The notes under the pieces are model-generated. The model searched no databases, was not told where the DNA came from, and saw only the letters and a program-made list of their open reading frames with translations. This document shows, piece by piece, positions 57,460 to 63,929 of a stretch of DNA of 64,000 nt. The stretch covers positions 1-64,000 of the forward strand of contig LNFK01000053.1 in the NCBI GenBank assembly GCA_001464315.1, in the 5' to 3' direction. How positions within the stretch are numbered: position 1 is the first letter of the stretch; each line of letters opens with the position of its first letter. A program made the translations under genes and the position numbers. The stretch is from Sphingomonadales bacterium Ga0077559 (lineage in GTDB: Bacteria > Pseudomonadota > Alphaproteobacteria > Sphingomonadales > Sphingomonadaceae).

Positions 57460-60279
57460 TTAGTGCGCTGCTCCCCAGCTCGCTCCGGTTCCGATTTCAA
57501 CGCCAAGCGGTACAGTCAGCTTGACCAACGGCTCCGCTGCGCCCGCCATGACCGCCTCGATAACCTTGCTCGCTGCCGCGACGTCCGCCTCGGGCAATTC
57601 GAAAACCAGTTCATCATGCACCTGCAGCAGCATTTTGACATTGGGCAGGCCCGCATCCAGCAAGGCAGGCCTCATTCGAACCATGGCGCGCTTGATGATA
57701 TCGGCGCTTGTCCCCTGAATCGGCGCGTTGATCGAAGCGCGTTCGCTACCCTGCCGTTCAGCTTGATTGGGTGACTTTATCCGAGGGAACCATGTCTTGC
57801 GGCCAAAGAGCGTCGTCGAATGGCCGACCTCGCGTACCTCTGCGAGCGTCTCCTGAATATAATTCGAAATGCCGGGAAAGCGTTTGAAATAGGCGTCGAT
57901 CAACGCTTGGGCCTCGTCGGAAGTCGACTCCAATCGCTTTGCCAATCCCCACCGCGAGATACCGTAAAGGATCGAGAAGTTGATCGTCTTCGCTCGCCCG
58001 CGTGTGTCGCGATTGACCTCGCCAAACATCTCCATTGCTGTACGCGCGTGGATATCCTCGCCCTTTTCAAAGGCATCGCGCAGCGGTTCGACATCGGCAA
58101 AATGCGCCGCGAGCCGTAGCTCGATCTGGCTATAGTCGGCGGAAAGAATAACATTGCCCGGTTCGGCCACAAAGGCATCGCGGATTTGCCGTCCGGTTTC
58201 GGTGCGGATCGGTATATTTTGCAAGTTTGGATCGGTTGAAGACAGGCGCCCGGTTTGAGCGCCAACAAGGCTATAACTGGTGTGAACTCGGCCAGTCGCC
58301 GGATCGATCTGCTGCTGAAGGCTGTCGGTGTAGGTCGATTTGAGCTTCGATAATTGCCGCCAGTCCAAAACCTTACGCGCTATTTCGACCCCCTGCCCGG
58401 CCAAGTCTTCGAGCACTGTTACATCAGTCGAATATTGCCCGGACTTGCCTTTCTTACCGCCTTTGTGACCCAATTTGCCGAACAGGATTTCTCCCAGTTG
58501 CTGCGGACTGCCGATTGTGAATGGTTGACCGGCGAGCGCATGGATTTCTTTTTCCAGCACCTCCATTTGCGCCGCAAACTCGCCCGATAGCCGTGCCAGC
58601 ACAGCCCGGTCGACCTTGATGCCGGTGCATTCCATTTTGGACAGCACTGGGACGAGCGGTCGATCGACGAGTTCATACACGCTCGTCGCCTTTTCGGGGC
58701 TAAGCCGCAGTTTCAGATGGTGCCAAAGTCGCAAGGTTATGTCGGCATCTTCGGCGGCGTAGCATGTGGCGTCGGCCAAGGGCACGGCCGCAAAGCCAAT
58801 CTGGCTTTTGCCAGTGCCGGTGACGGTCTTGTACGAAATGCACTCGTGGCCAAGATGCACTTTGGCCAGCTCGTCCATGCCATGCCCCTGTCGCCCCGCG
58901 TCGAGTGCGAAGCTCATGACCATCGTATCGTCATAGGGGCTGATGGTAACACCATGCCGCGCGAGCACCGACATGTCATATTTCAGATTCTGCCCGATTT
59001 TAAGGACCGACGGGTCGGTCAGCAACGGTTTCAACCGCTCGATAGCCAACGCCATTTCGACCTGCTCCGGCTTTTCGGCAAACATATCGGTGCCGCCATG
59101 GGCGAGCGGCACGTAACACGCCTCGCCCGGCGCAACCGCCAGAGAAAAGCCGACAAGATTGGCGCTCGCGGCCTGCAAGCTGTCGGTTTCGGTATCGAAG
59201 CCGAGCGTGCCGGTTTCATGTGCGCGGGTGATCCAATGGTCGAGCCGCGCCAGGTCGGTTACGCACTCGTAGCTTTTGGTGTCGATGGGCGGCATCTGCA
59301 TAGGCTGAGCCGAACTTCCCTGGGCCGGTGCAGCCGCCGCACCATCACCGTTGCTCGTGGCCTTGGGATTACCCGCGATCGATTTATTAGCAGCAGCGGT
59401 ATCGCCGGTTACCAAGCCGATACGTTTGAGCAACGAGTTGAACCCATGATGCTGGAGGAAAGCCGCTAGTGGTTCCTCGGGGATCGCGCCGAGTTGCATA
59501 TCGTCAATCGCAATTGGCAACGGGCAATCTTCCTTGAGCGTTACCAATACCTTCGACAGCCGCGCTTTTTCGGCATGTTCGATCAGATTATCTCGCATTT
59601 TCGAAGGCTTCATACCGGGCGCGGCAGCCAGCACGCTTTCGAGGTCACCAAATTCCTGAATGAGTTTGGTTGCGGTCTTCGGACCGACCCCAGGAACGCC
59701 CGGAACATTGTCCACGCTATCGCCCATCAGCGCCAACACGTCACCAACCTTTTCCGGACCGACGCCGAACTTCTCGGTCACTTCCTCGGTGCGGATGCGT
59801 TCATTTTTCATCGTGTCGAACATGTCGACGCACGGTTCAACGAGCTGCATCAGGTCTTTGTCGGAGGACACAATGGTGACATGCCACCCTGCCCGGCACG
59901 CCGCCTTGGCATAACTTGCGATCATGTCGTCGGCTTCGACATTATCTTCTTCGATCATGGGCAGCGAAAAGGCACGCGTGGCATCGCGGATCATCGGGAA
60001 TTGCGGGCGCAAATCCTCCGGCGGCTCAGGCCGGTTAGCCTTGTAGAGGTCGTAAATTTCGTTGCGGAACGATTGGCTCGATTTGTCGAGCACGACTGCC
60101 ATATGCGTCGGCCCGTCCGCCTTATGCAAGTCATCCGCCAGCTTCCACAGCATCGTGGTGTATCCATAGACTGCGCCAACAGGCTCACCGTGCTGATTGG
60201 TCAGCGGCGGCAGGCGATGATAGGCACGGAAAATATAAGCGGAGCCATCGACCAGGTAGAGATGCTTTTGTTCGGACAT
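57460..60279 (-). CDS. polA: DNA polymerase I
   Basis: 939 residues. N-terminal 5' nuclease (1-290; LYLVDGSAYIFRAYH, DVLALMGDSVDNVPGVPGVGPKTA), 3'-5' exonuclease with intact acidic residues (FDTETDSL, NLKYDMSVL, YAAEDADITLRL), and the polymerase with motif A DYSQIELRLAAHF, O-helix RGRAKTINFSILYG and motif C VHDELVFE. Proofreading is therefore predicted active, unlike some Thermus-type enzymes. It removes RNA primers and fills gaps in repair. Independent gene. Confidence 0.98.
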   Translation of the reverse strand: MSEQKHLYLVDGSAYIFRAYHRLPPLTNQHGEPVGAVYGYTTMLWKLADDLHKADGPTHMAVVLDKSSQSFRNEIYDLYKANRPEPPEDLRPQFPMIRDATRAFSLPMIEEDNVEADDMIASYAKAACRAGWHVTIVSSDKDLMQLVEPCVDMFDTMKNERIRTEEVTEKFGVGPEKVGDVLALMGDSVDNVPGVPGVGPKTATKLIQEFGDLESVLAAAPGMKPSKMRDNLIEHAEKARLSKVLVTLKEDCPLPIAIDDMQLGAIPEEPLAAFLQHHGFNSLLKRIGLVTGDTAAANKSIAGNPKATSNGDGAAAAPAQGSSAQPMQMPPIDTKSYECVTDLARLDHWITRAHETGTLGFDTETDSLQAASANLVGFSLAVAPGEACYVPLAHGGTDMFAEKPEQVEMALAIERLKPLLTDPSVLKIGQNLKYDMSVLARHGVTISPYDDTMVMSFALDAGRQGHGMDELAKVHLGHECISYKTVTGTGKSQIGFAAVPLADATCYAAEDADITLRLWHHLKLRLSPEKATSVYELVDRPLVPVLSKMECTGIKVDRAVLARLSGEFAAQMEVLEKEIHALAGQPFTIGSPQQLGEILFGKLGHKGGKKGKSGQYSTDVTVLEDLAGQGVEIARKVLDWRQLSKLKSTYTDSLQQQIDPATGRVHTSYSLVGAQTGRLSSTDPNLQNIPIRTETGRQIRDAFVAEPGNVILSADYSQIELRLAAHFADVEPLRDAFEKGEDIHARTAMEMFGEVNRDTRGRAKTINFSILYGISRWGLAKRLESTSDEAQALIDAYFKRFPGISNYIQETLAEVREVGHSTTLFGRKTWFPRIKSPNQAERQGSERASINAPIQGTSADIIKRAMVRMRPALLDAGLPNVKMLLQVHDELVFELPEADVAAASKVIEAVMAGAAEPLVKLTVPLGVEIGTGASWGAAH

Positions 60280-61500: not shown

Positions 61501-61800
61501 TCAGCGAACACCAAGCCGCCGATCTGATTTGACCATCACCCAGGCCGATGCCTTGGCCTTGTTTCGGCACACCCATTCGATTTTGCGCACTTGGTGGCCC
61601 AATTGGTCGTTGGCGAAATCGCACACTTCCCGCGCAGTTCGATCAATATGCAAGGCGAGGATTTTCTGACCCTTTGAGGTGTTCAAATTGATGTCATCGG
61701 TGCGGACGCTGACCGAATGGGTTTCCTCCGACGCGGCATTTGCGGCTAAAGGTAGCGTTGCGAAAATGGCTGCCATTGCCAATTTTGTAAATACCAACAT
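61501..61800 (-). CDS. UrcA family secreted protein
   Basis: 99 residues from ATG 61800 with AGGAG seven bases upstream; the longer frame to 62058 runs into the divergent regulator and is ignored. Signal peptide cleaves near ANA-AS (about residue 22). The mature part carries the UrcA pattern SVSVRTDDINLNTSKGQKILALHIDRTAREVC ... WVCRNKA, two Cys likely disulfide-bonded. UrcA proteins are small periplasmic proteins of unknown function common in sphingomonads and Caulobacter. It is divergent from an AraC-type regulator and a tandem-half-site element (61889-61922) lies between them. Confidence 0.85.
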   Translation of the reverse strand: MLVFTKLAMAAIFATLPLAANAASEETHSVSVRTDDINLNTSKGQKILALHIDRTAREVCDFANDQLGHQVRKIEWVCRNKAKASAWVMVKSDRRLGVR

Positions 61801-61888: not shown

Positions 61889-61922
61889 TTCGAAACGCAG
61901 CTAGCCGATTTCAAAATCGACC
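61889..61922 (-). promoter_or_regulatory. Predicted regulator-binding element between urcA-type gene and AraC-type gene
   Basis: Read on the minus strand, GATTTTGAAATCGGCTAGC and then TGCGTTTCGAA repeat the sequence found at 63017-63050 (GATTTCGAAATCGGCTAGC, CCAGTTTCGGAA). Within each element two TTTCGAA-like half-sites lie 20-21 bases apart, two helical turns, as in AraC-family operators. Orientation points toward the UrcA-type gene, 89 bases away. Confidence 0.7.
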
Positions 61923-61978
61923 AGAGCGCTTGGGCAAAAGAACTTGTCGCTACGCATTCGGTCTGGCAGCCAGCTTCC

Positions 61979-63022
61979 ATGTCTATCTTCAGCCAAATTG
62001 ACCTGATGGCGCGTGGCGGTTCTATTGCATTACTTGCTTTATGGAGCTGGTTGCTCATCCGCGATCACCGCCCAGTCCTTGCGGCCAGAGTAGCGGTGCT
62101 AATGAATATCGCGATTATTTGCTATTTGCTGACTACTGCCGATTGGATGGACCGGCATTTTAGTGTTCTTGGCCTTACCATTGCTTTGGGCGCAGGTTCG
62201 GCACCGGGGTTGTTTTGGCTTTTTTCCAAAGCTTGGTTCAACGACGAAAAGCAGATCGGCTTGAGCAGCATTTACCTAGTGCTGTTTTCGATTCTCAATA
62301 TGCTGATAATGCAACTTAGCTTTATTGAAGGCGGCGCCGTCAATCAAATTACCGGGGCTATTTTTCGTCTCGGCATGTTGGCGTTTGCTGGTGCAGGACT
62401 GTGGGAAGCATGGCGCGGACGAAATGGCGATCTTGTCGAGGGACGCAGGAGATTGCGGCCGCGGATCGTTGCGGCAGTCGGCGGCTATGTCATCATTATT
62501 GCGTTTACCGAAATCGCTGTCTTCAACGCCGCTGCCCCGCGTTGGATTATTGGGATTGTCGGCAGTAGCATCGTTCTGATTACATTCCTGTTTTGCGCGG
62601 CGATGTTCGGAATGCGGCAGGCGGATTTGTTCGGCCCAGTAAATGGCGGAAAGCCGATAACTGCCAGAACTGTTGCCGACGACCCGCTTGCAGAAAAACT
62701 GTGCAACCATATGGAGCGCGAATTGGCATGGCGTGACGAAGGTTTATCGATCGCCGCACTTGCAGCCCAGTTGGGCGAGCAGGAATACCGGTTGCGCCGT
62801 GTTATCAATGGACAGCTTGGCCATCGGAACTTTGCCGCGTTTCTGAACGGGTATCGGCTCACCGAAGTAAAGGCAGCACTTGCCGATCCTAGCCAAAAAG
62901 AAGTGCCAATTATCACCATCGCGCTAGATGCAGGTTTTGGTTCGCTCGGTCCGTTCAACCGCGCATTTCGTGAAGCCGAGGGGATGACGCCCAGCGCGTT
63001 TAGAGCACAAGCCGCTGGCTGA
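61979..63022 (+). CDS. Membrane-anchored AraC-family transcriptional regulator
   Basis: 347 residues from ATG 61979. The N-terminal about 215 residues contain six or seven hydrophobic segments (LLALWSWLLIRD, VAVLMNIAIICYLLTT, LGLTIALGAGSAPGLFWLF, SSIYLVLFSILNMLIM, and others), then a linker and a C-terminal AraC HTH pair (about 245-345; GLSIAALAAQLGEQEYRLRRVINGQLGHRNFAAFLNGYR, IALDAGFGSLGPFNRAFREAEGMTPSAFR). A sensory membrane module joined directly to a DNA-binding domain makes it a one-component membrane regulator. Its own stop codon lies within the downstream operator at 63017-63050. No strong ribosome-binding site is visible before the ATG. Confidence 0.85.
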   Translation: MSIFSQIDLMARGGSIALLALWSWLLIRDHRPVLAARVAVLMNIAIICYLLTTADWMDRHFSVLGLTIALGAGSAPGLFWLFSKAWFNDEKQIGLSSIYLVLFSILNMLIMQLSFIEGGAVNQITGAIFRLGMLAFAGAGLWEAWRGRNGDLVEGRRRLRPRIVAAVGGYVIIIAFTEIAVFNAAAPRWIIGIVGSSIVLITFLFCAAMFGMRQADLFGPVNGGKPITARTVADDPLAEKLCNHMERELAWRDEGLSIAALAAQLGEQEYRLRRVINGQLGHRNFAAFLNGYRLTEVKAALADPSQKEVPIITIALDAGFGSLGPFNRAFREAEGMTPSAFRAQAAG

Positions 63023-63050
63023 TTTCGAAATCGGCTAGCCAGTTTCGGAA
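63017..63050 (+). promoter_or_regulatory. Predicted regulator-binding element for the desaturase gene
   Basis: GGCTGATTTCGAAATCGGCT at 63017 onward and AGCCAGTTTCGGAA to 63050. The TTTCGAA and TTTCGGA half-sites start at 63023 and 63043, 20 bases apart, same orientation. A TAAACT at 63060-63065 is a possible -10. It overlaps the AraC-type stop codon and ends 63 bases before the desaturase start. Almost identical to the element upstream of the UrcA-type gene. Confidence 0.72.
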
Positions 63051-63113
63051 TGATGCGAGTAAACTGCGCGTTAGGCAGGCAGGTGAATTGTATTTACTGC
63101 CAAGGACCACACT

Positions 63114-63929
63114 ATGACCACTGGATTTCCTCCCCTCGACATTCTGCTCAACCATGGGCTGGATATTGTCAGCTTCGATATGGGGCGATACCTGATCGCT
63201 GCATCGCTTACCTTTGCAGTCGTCTGGATGTTACGCCGCACCGCGCTTAAAACCCGTAAGATACAGACACGCGAAGCAACTTCAGCCGACATGCGGCGCG
63301 AATTTTTGCAATCGCTTCAATCAGTGTTTGTTTACACAATTGGTGTGTGCTTCCTGATCTGGGGCCGCGAGGTTGGCCTGTTTTACAGCATTCTTGGCGA
63401 AGGGATCGGGATTTGGACCGACCTGTTCATTCTCGCTGCAATAATCATTGCGCACGACGCCTATTTCTATTGGGCGCACCGTTTCATGCACCATCCGAAA
63501 CTGTTCAAGACATTCCACCGCGCGCATCACCGTTCGATCACGCCGACACCTTGGGCCGCGTATAGTTTCGCCATGCCCGAGGCTGTGGTCATGTTCATGT
63601 TTGTGCCCATCTGGCAGTTCTTCGTTCCGACACCGGGCTGGGTGATGTTCACCTGGCTCAATTTCCAGATCATCCGCAATGCCATGGGCCATGCCGGCTT
63701 CGAATTTATGCCACGCTGGTGGCTGGCGACGCCGCTGACCAGCTGGATCAACACAACGACGCACCATGACTTGCACCATAATGGCGGCTTCAACACAAAT
63801 TACGGCCTATATTTCACGTGGTGGGACAAATGGATGGGAACCGAACATCCCAAATATCATGCGAAATTTGCCGAGGTCGTCGGACGCGGCAAAGAGCAGA
63901 TCGGAGTGCCGGAAACCGCGCTCGCTTAG
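63114..63929 (+). CDS. Sterol desaturase / fatty acid hydroxylase superfamily protein
   Basis: 271 residues with about four to five transmembrane helices and the three His boxes of the membrane diiron hydroxylase superfamily: H114 and H122-RFM-HH127, H135-RAHH (HXXHH) and H217HDLHH222 (HXXHH). These enzymes use Fe2 and O2 to hydroxylate or desaturate lipids, sterols or carotenoids. The actual substrate is not indicated; in a sphingomonad, fatty acyl or sphingoid chains, or hopanoid-related lipids, are possible. The promoter region holds an AraC-type operator. Stop overlaps the next convergent gene by TTAG. Confidence 0.9.
   Translation: MTTGFPPLDILLNHGLDIVSFDMGRYLIAASLTFAVVWMLRRTALKTRKIQTREATSADMRREFLQSLQSVFVYTIGVCFLIWGREVGLFYSILGEGIGIWTDLFILAAIIIAHDAYFYWAHRFMHHPKLFKTFHRAHHRSITPTPWAAYSFAMPEAVVMFMFVPIWQFFVPTPGWVMFTWLNFQIIRNAMGHAGFEFMPRWWLATPLTSWINTTTHHDLHHNGGFNTNYGLYFTWWDKWMGTEHPKYHAKFAEVVGRGKEQIGVPETALA

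Follow-up and report, generated by a model that had tools for sequence, protein, structure and literature searches.

At the distal end of the window, i.e., the whole 64,000-nucleotide stretch analyzed here, an AraC-type regulator gene (araC) is followed on the same strand by a gene of the fatty-acid-hydroxylase superfamily (FAH; sterol desaturase family) and preceded by a divergently oriented UrcA-type gene (Table 1). Two tandem elements lie at this locus, one between the UrcA-type gene and araC and the other at the end of araC, whose TGA stop codon (positions 63020 to 63022) is located inside the downstream element. A polA-like gene, named by eye, is found at positions 57460 to 60279 of the window, and because it also adjoins the locus in two relatives (L041 and L042), the chromosomal location of the araC-FAH unit may be conserved within the genus.

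Table 1. Genes and sequence elements of the araC-FAH locus (window coordinates)
Feature	Position	Strand	Description
araC-type regulator	61979-63022	+	347 aa; PF12833, 56.4 bits; PF00165, 28.9 bits
FAH (fatty-acid-hydroxylase superfamily, sterol desaturase family)	63114-63929	+	271 aa, membrane enzyme; PF04116, 92.3 bits (cut-off, 31)
UrcA-type gene	61501-61800	-	99 aa; NCBIfam TIGR04433, 53.3 bits (cut-off, 25)
Upstream element	61889-61924	-	36-mer CTGGTCGATTTTGAAATCGGCTAGCTGCGTTTCGAA; 88 bp before UrcA ATG
Upstream element, half-sites	61924-61909 and 61904-61889	-	CTGGTCGATTTTGAAA and CTAGCTGCGTTTCGAA; tandem
Opposite-strand half-site	61901-61916	+	CTAGCCGATTTCAAAA; overlaps upstream element; 78 bp before araC ATG
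Downstream element	63015-63050	+	36-mer CTGGCTGATTTCGAAATCGGCTAGCCAGTTTCGGAA; overlaps araC stop; 63 bp before FAH ATG
Downstream element, half-sites	63015-63030 and 63035-63050	+	CTGGCTGATTTCGAAA and CTAGCCAGTTTCGGAA; tandem

The presence of a membrane-anchored AraC-type regulator between the two neighbors, as proposed in an initial annotation of this DNA, was corroborated by Pfam, which detects the AraC helix-turn-helix (HTH) domain, and by an AlphaFold2 model based on an alignment of 48 sequences (mean pLDDT, 90), in which seven long helices are followed by the HTH domain. The long helices are predicted to be membrane helices, so that seven transmembrane segments would occupy approximately residues 3 to 210 and an AraC double HTH approximately residues 235 to 346. 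HTH_18 is present in 48/48 aligned homologues (E ≤ 5), and the regulator matches HTH structures, including those of AraC/XylS activators, at a Z score of about 15. Residues R28, D151, R156, and R160 of the membrane half are invariant or nearly so and, by our own reading of the model, would be placed at its cytoplasmic ends. The assignment of the downstream neighbor to the sterol desaturase family likewise holds, since FAH matches PF04116 and its histidines H122, H126, H135, H138, H139, H193, H217, H218, H221, and H222 are invariant in 36 aligned sequences; a PDB sequence search for a solved relative of FAH returned chance matches only. The start of the UrcA-type protein resembles a signal peptide, as judged by eye. 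FAH is the presumed main target of the regulator, and UrcA is an optional neighbor and a possible second target.

Both elements of the initial annotation are present on the respective strands with a common core, and the spacing of 20 or 21 bases given for their half-sites was borne out, with cores 21 bp apart upstream (TTTTGAAA and TTTCGAA) and 20 bp apart downstream (TTTCGAAA and TTTCGGAA). The half-sites had been described as TTTCGAA-like; such tandem cores do exist, but the repeat unit is larger, namely, a 16-bp half-site in direct repeat. The columns of the two halves correlate at 0.71 in direct and at best at 0.43 in inverted orientation, and 0/2,000 permutations gave an equally high direct-repeat correlation. 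Within the window, the core GATTTNGAAATCGGCTAGC has five matches with at most three mismatches (0.06 expected), comprising two perfect ones and three others, one of which overlaps the downstream element. Across the 2.86-Mb genome, GATTTYGAAATCGGCTAGC has two perfect matches, i.e., both elements, one match with two mismatches that overlaps the downstream element, and seven with three mismatches that lack a second half-site (six score <6 and one scores 8.6); no other strong copy was found in the whole genome. With a 36-bp weight matrix from 25 relatives, excluding the genome itself, the downstream element scores 57.5 and the upstream element scores 37.7, versus a best score in 40 random 64-kb first-order Markov sequences that averages −1.4 and has a maximum of 7.8. 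Because this strict matrix missed or underscored sites with a period of 21 (L070 and L077), a half-site pair model was adopted, which assigns 44.9 to the downstream and 32.7 to the upstream element. A possible stem (GGCAG...CTGCC) is located at positions 63065 to 63110, just 5' of the FAH ribosome-binding site; beyond the window, it was seen in no more than some of the near relatives, and its interpretation as a leader hairpin before FAH was dropped.

In relatives, the element is a tandem direct repeat of the half-site CTRGCYGRTTYCGRAA with a period of 20 (sometimes 21), and in a matrix of 26 loci, whose regulators are 44 to 100% identical, the conserved halves are CTGGCYGATTYCGRAA and CTAGCCGNTTYSGRAA, again directly repeated with a period of 20. 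Seventeen of these loci came from a protein search and nine from the core pattern; the latter are not independent, because the pattern itself retrieved them, and only the 17 are unbiased. All 17 carry the element on the araC stop, with scores of 26.9 to 47.7 when each locus was left out of its own scoring. Relatives with the genes but without the elements, which according to the initial annotation would make the unit coincidental, were thus not encountered among these loci for its araC-FAH half. The stop codon is TAG in 14/26 loci, in the middle of the element, and TGA in 12/26, at its start; these stops belong to different reading frames of the same element, which indicates a constraint on the DNA rather than on the protein. 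In 22/26 loci, the element lies 62 to 70 bp before the FAH ATG, as extrapolated from alignments, and in one orientation towards FAH. It is conserved across several genera, and in the suggested search of other sphingomonad genomes, for which 397 genomes of the family were scanned with the exact core GATTYCGRAATCGGCTWG, 16 sites were obtained in 14 genomes; 15 of these sites adjoin the regulator and one (L070) adjoins FAH only. Left out of the 26-locus matrix were L057, a near-duplicate of L051; the more distant loci L017 to L019, which are among the 18 same-order loci below; L016 and L046, in which the automatic stop placement was wrong and the element is visible; and L024, L058, and L065, in which the gene is cut by a contig end or a run of N. 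Loci with the same stop region (L041, L042, L043, L063, L066, L075, and L076) were removed before counting.

As judged from sequence comparison, the local core unit is araC plus FAH, and the same comparison establishes the conservation of the putative operator, its direct-repeat architecture, its fixed position, and its linkage to the regulator and FAH. Among 119 relatives, both genes were found in 20, araC only in 6, FAH only in 4, and neither in 89 (Fisher, 8e-14; thresholds of E ≤ 1e-20 for the regulator and E ≤ 1e-40 for FAH), and the site was present in 0/5 FAH loci without the regulator (four genomes). That the downstream element points at the sterol-desaturase gene agrees with its position immediately before FAH in the window and with genome G231, where araC and FAH are about 2 kb apart with other genes between them and FAH has kept its own copy (score, 29.1); the element behind araC scores 16.0 in this genome and is followed by an open reading frame (ORF) for a 37-aa membrane peptide. 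Tiny membrane-peptide ORFs directly behind the operator were seen in two loci, L018 (1288-1392, minus strand) and L077 (1261-1371, minus strand); the peptides of 35 and 37 aa are 42% alike over 24 residues (E, 0.3) and possibly represent an unannotated further target. In Ruegeria sp. THAF33, araC and FAH are divergent, and a weak site at the junction (score, 11.4; nominal P = 0.007) faces FAH, lying inside the gene by its annotated start and about 90 bp before a later in-frame Met by our own reading. Sites with a nominal P of ≤0.01 were present in 8/8 loci with FAH versus 1/11 without it in a survey of the class. This linkage was not repeated in the phylum survey (P ≤ 0.015 in 2/3 loci with FAH and in 15/19 without), and the site therefore appears to go with the regulator more than with FAH, which would be only one output. 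In L207, FAH is present and the site is found only before araC, with none behind it.

The upstream element had been interpreted as pointing at the UrcA-type gene and the whole locus as a three-gene regulon. In the window, the upstream array indeed scores higher facing UrcA (32.7) than facing araC (19.3), but 7/7 UrcA relatives examined have an extra tandem at about −122/−101 that scores higher facing araC than UrcA. The araC-FAH unit with its operator remains of the proposed regulon, whereas UrcA is optional: the gene and araC are divergent in the window as well as in L044, L045, L047, L048, L051, L057, L065, and L069 and codirectional in L052, and no UrcA match was obtained in the other ten same-genus araC loci (L012 to L016, L018 to L021, and L024, the last of which has a run of N before araC). 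The second UrcA gene of the genome has no element nearby, and no UzcR-type motif (CATTAC-N6-TTAA) was found within two mismatches near the UrcA-type gene of the window. A half-site is located 56 to 59 bp before the araC ATG in 15/17 loci that were chosen because upstream sites were suspected; its counterpart in the window is at −78. Other loci are without upstream sites, e.g., L012, L049, L052, L053, L055, L056, L061, L062, L064, L071, L072, and L074. Calls of half-site orientation are weak, because the cores are palindromic and score on both strands. In L049, L053, and L055, araC directly follows an ABC-transporter-like gene (by eye), the end of which is at most about 20 bp from, or overlaps, the araC start, and this arrangement together with the missing upstream operator suggests cotranscription. 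The pattern on the upstream side hence makes autoregulation the more general reading and control of UrcA a local one.

Looser patterns were searched in 18 genomes and gave 147 matches versus 116 for a reversed-pattern control and, for a second pattern, 150 versus 31, the reversed pattern being a poor control for coding bias. From the resulting 297 rows, 60 were fetched, and a full tandem (≥12) was present in 30/32 loci near araC or FAH genes and in 0/28 elsewhere. Weaker sites elsewhere in the genomes are possible.

The association extends beyond the family. With the Sphingomonadaceae matrix, which contains none of the loci in question, a score of ≥12 behind the stop was reached in 13/18 same-order, 6/19 class-survey, and 12/22 phylum-survey loci and in 0/76 ends of other long open frames (maximum, 10.2). 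The control ends belong to open frames of ≥250 codons that are not confirmed genes, araC loci were excluded, and the control leans towards matches because it was taken from loci fetched for weak pattern matches. Even at a nominal P of ≤0.05, the site is absent from 3/18 same-order, 6/19 class, and 3/22 phylum loci. Nominal P values run low (≤0.015 in 6/76 control ends and <0.05 in 2/18 and 2/22 internal controls), and we therefore rely on the scores. Eight of the 18 same-order loci are of the same family, and L025 and L030, in which a paralogue within an array was scored, were counted as misses. The 22 phylum loci (L193 to L214) are among the matches listed, minus the previously seen L188 to L192, L181, and L183; nine belong to a single genus (f150 g340), and the gene of L193 was also counted, as L036, among the 18 same-order loci. 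As a profile, the membrane half alone was detected in at least 19/289 class genomes and at least 40/397 sampled Pseudomonadota genomes, own genome included, both of which are lower bounds with at most 10 (class) and 7 (phylum) candidates scored per genome; the AraC DNA-binding domain was found in 19/19 class and 22/22 phylum loci checked. Three to seven membrane-AraC matches per genome, some head to tail, were seen in L025 to L040 (G075, G092, G096, G109, G113, and G115; family f5).

On plasmid pHALHY01 of Haliscomenobacter hydrossis (Bacteroidota), the regulator gene adjoins an FAH-DUF2147 fusion, and a weaker site between both genes faces the regulator (score, 16.5; nominal P = 0.003). Dshi_3702, a Dinoroseobacter shibae fatty acid hydroxylase (PMC8831719), was considered as a relative and dropped, as it was absent among the plasmid matches at 1e-20. 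Other genes downstream of the regulator encode a methyltransferase and a DUF2147 protein (Pfam) and, by eye and in families other than that of the window, proteins resembling serine hydrolases (L196, L197, L198, L203, and L211) and two-heme c-type cytochromes (L208, L210, L213, and L214); the downstream ORF looks spurious in 6/20 loci checked (L194, L195, L200, L201, L204, and L205). FAH fusions with DUF2147 at the C terminus are found in L186 (4811-6232) and L187 (1941-3281), and in L026 a free DUF2147 gene follows the araC stop behind the regulator, which suggests that DUF2147 and FAH may act together.

We propose, with a probability of roughly 0.7, that the locus represents a one-component membrane switch, in which the receptor would act on FAH by binding the tandem repeat located where its own gene ends. 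This inner-membrane receptor with seven helices would have its AraC DNA-binding domain facing the cytoplasm, and binding of this domain to the tandem direct repeat would control, and most likely activate, FAH, which starts 63 bp further on. The half-sites before araC would allow autoregulation, and the second tandem site in this genome could also serve the divergent UrcA-type gene. The receptor would sense a membrane or periplasmic signal, and a membrane lipid would be the substrate of the FAH product. The architecture of seven helices plus HTH is a prediction of the model; from the sequence, we infer binding by the regulator, the sign of regulation, autoregulation, and the control of UrcA. 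Membrane or lipid state as the signal is speculative, the lipid-enzyme neighbor being the only hint. Since distantly related bacteria have comparable arrangements, the locus may exemplify a compact, little-known sensor-to-gene switch. A broader reading, for which the odds are somewhat unfavorable, would see here an undescribed class of GPCR-like seven-helix receptors joined to AraC, with the operator beyond the receptor's own stop and any gene behind it as the output (FAH, DUF2147, serine hydrolase, c-type cytochrome, or methyltransferase), i.e., a portable cassette across Pseudomonadota and a Bacteroidota plasmid.

A regulator that keeps FAH (and UrcA) repressed and is released by a membrane signal would differ from the proposed switch in sign only, and we regard this version as rather unlikely, albeit the most serious competitor. 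No sigma-70-like promoter was matched between the elements and either gene in the window, and an activator or repressor geometry is therefore not readable from the sequence; given this negative result, the site could overlap the core promoter, where two bound half-sites could block RNA polymerase. However, one-orientation repeats at 62 to 70 bp before the FAH ATG resemble the sites of AraC-type activators. It is a good deal less probable that the site is owned by a different DNA-binding protein, which controls araC and FAH, with araC merely adjacent. The regulator is a putative binder of the site, and araC itself has upstream half-sites, but the site follows the regulator and is missing from the five FAH loci without it, exact-core matches in the 397 genomes occur only beside the araC/FAH pair, and in other orders and classes, where different genes lie downstream, the regulator is likewise accompanied by related sites. 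Moreover, direct repeats at 20 to 21 bp suit AraC-type double-HTH domains.

Marginally less probable still is an element that acts mainly as an RNA hairpin, i.e., a terminator or 3'-end stabilizer of the araC mRNA. The sequence CUGGCYGAUU..AAUCGGCUAG is able to form a 10-bp stem, which is part of the minimum-energy fold in four of six stretches folded, with z-scores of −1.94 and −2.15 in the window, −0.88 in L044, and −4.73 in L050, and the palindrome is kept by paired changes in L050 and L019. However, the stem is absent from the minimum-energy fold in L049 and L187, the element has neither a T-run nor a terminator call nor an Rfam match at the gathering threshold, the conserved second half-site at period 20 lies outside the stem, and the same half-sites are also found upstream of araC and upstream of FAH genes located away from any araC 3' end. 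Finally, two functionless elements that arose by recent local duplication or resemble each other by chance would account for the 19-bp core common to both elements and for the lack of another strong copy in the genome, but the chance of this is negligible in view of the conservation in several genera and of scores (57.5 and 37.7, own genome excluded) that contrast with a null maximum of 7.8.

If the proposed membrane switch is right, the regulator, the binding site, and the target would be named in one step for a family of membrane receptors, and it would become testable how a multihelix membrane protein that includes a DNA-binding domain can locate and switch a promoter without leaving the membrane. 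With the operator at the 3' end of the regulator gene, the binding site and the receptor would more readily stay together when the pair moves. For sphingomonads, the locus would offer a handle on the control of an unassigned lipid-modifying enzyme. The initial annotation knew of no description of this unit, and in the open-access literature, to which our search was confined, we found none of an AraC regulator with seven helices that is associated with FAH or has its operator on its own stop codon.

AraC-type activators with tandem sites are textbook knowledge, the AraC operator being a tandem direct repeat with about two helical turns between the half-sites. The AraC/XylS activators AraC, MarA, SoxS, Rob, and ToxT resemble the regulator in the double-HTH domain and the tandem direct-repeat operator; their sensory half is soluble, in contrast to the predicted seven-helix membrane domain, and the operator on the regulator's own stop codon is a further difference. 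Regarding the output, the fatty-acid-hydroxylase superfamily also includes OlsE, and FAH, which was placed by PF04116, is comparable at the superfamily level only. OlsE is described as a lipid hydroxylase in ornithine-lipid hydroxylation (PMC11631085). In Pseudomonas aeruginosa, the AraC-type regulator GliR (PA3027) activates neighboring lipid-metabolism genes from more than one site (PMC8151288); it is likewise located beside lipid genes, but its targets are others, and the term "transmembrane" is absent from the available text of that paper. Bacterial seven-helix receptors of the 7TMR-DISM type are also joined to cytoplasmic output domains (PMC1592074), and the corresponding Pfam family PF07695 gave a weak match in 2/48 members of the regulator family (best E, 0.23). 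The membrane half aligns with GPCRs at Z scores of up to 15.2 (rmsd, 4.4; 207 residues; 8% identity), but helical models can score as high as about 14 even where no clear match exists, and Foldseek returned no match at E ≤ 0.001; the GPCR-like helix arrangement may be only common seven-helix packing. A microbial rhodopsin was rejected, as the helix at residues 189 to 210 of the window protein contains no lysine and the retinal lysine of helix 7 is required. In Caulobacter, UzcRS controls UrcA, a periplasmic protein to which no function has been assigned (PMC8963506), and this system, according to the available text, shares with the present locus a regulated or putatively regulated UrcA gene and differs from it as a two-component system with half-sites of the type CATTAC-N6-TTAA.
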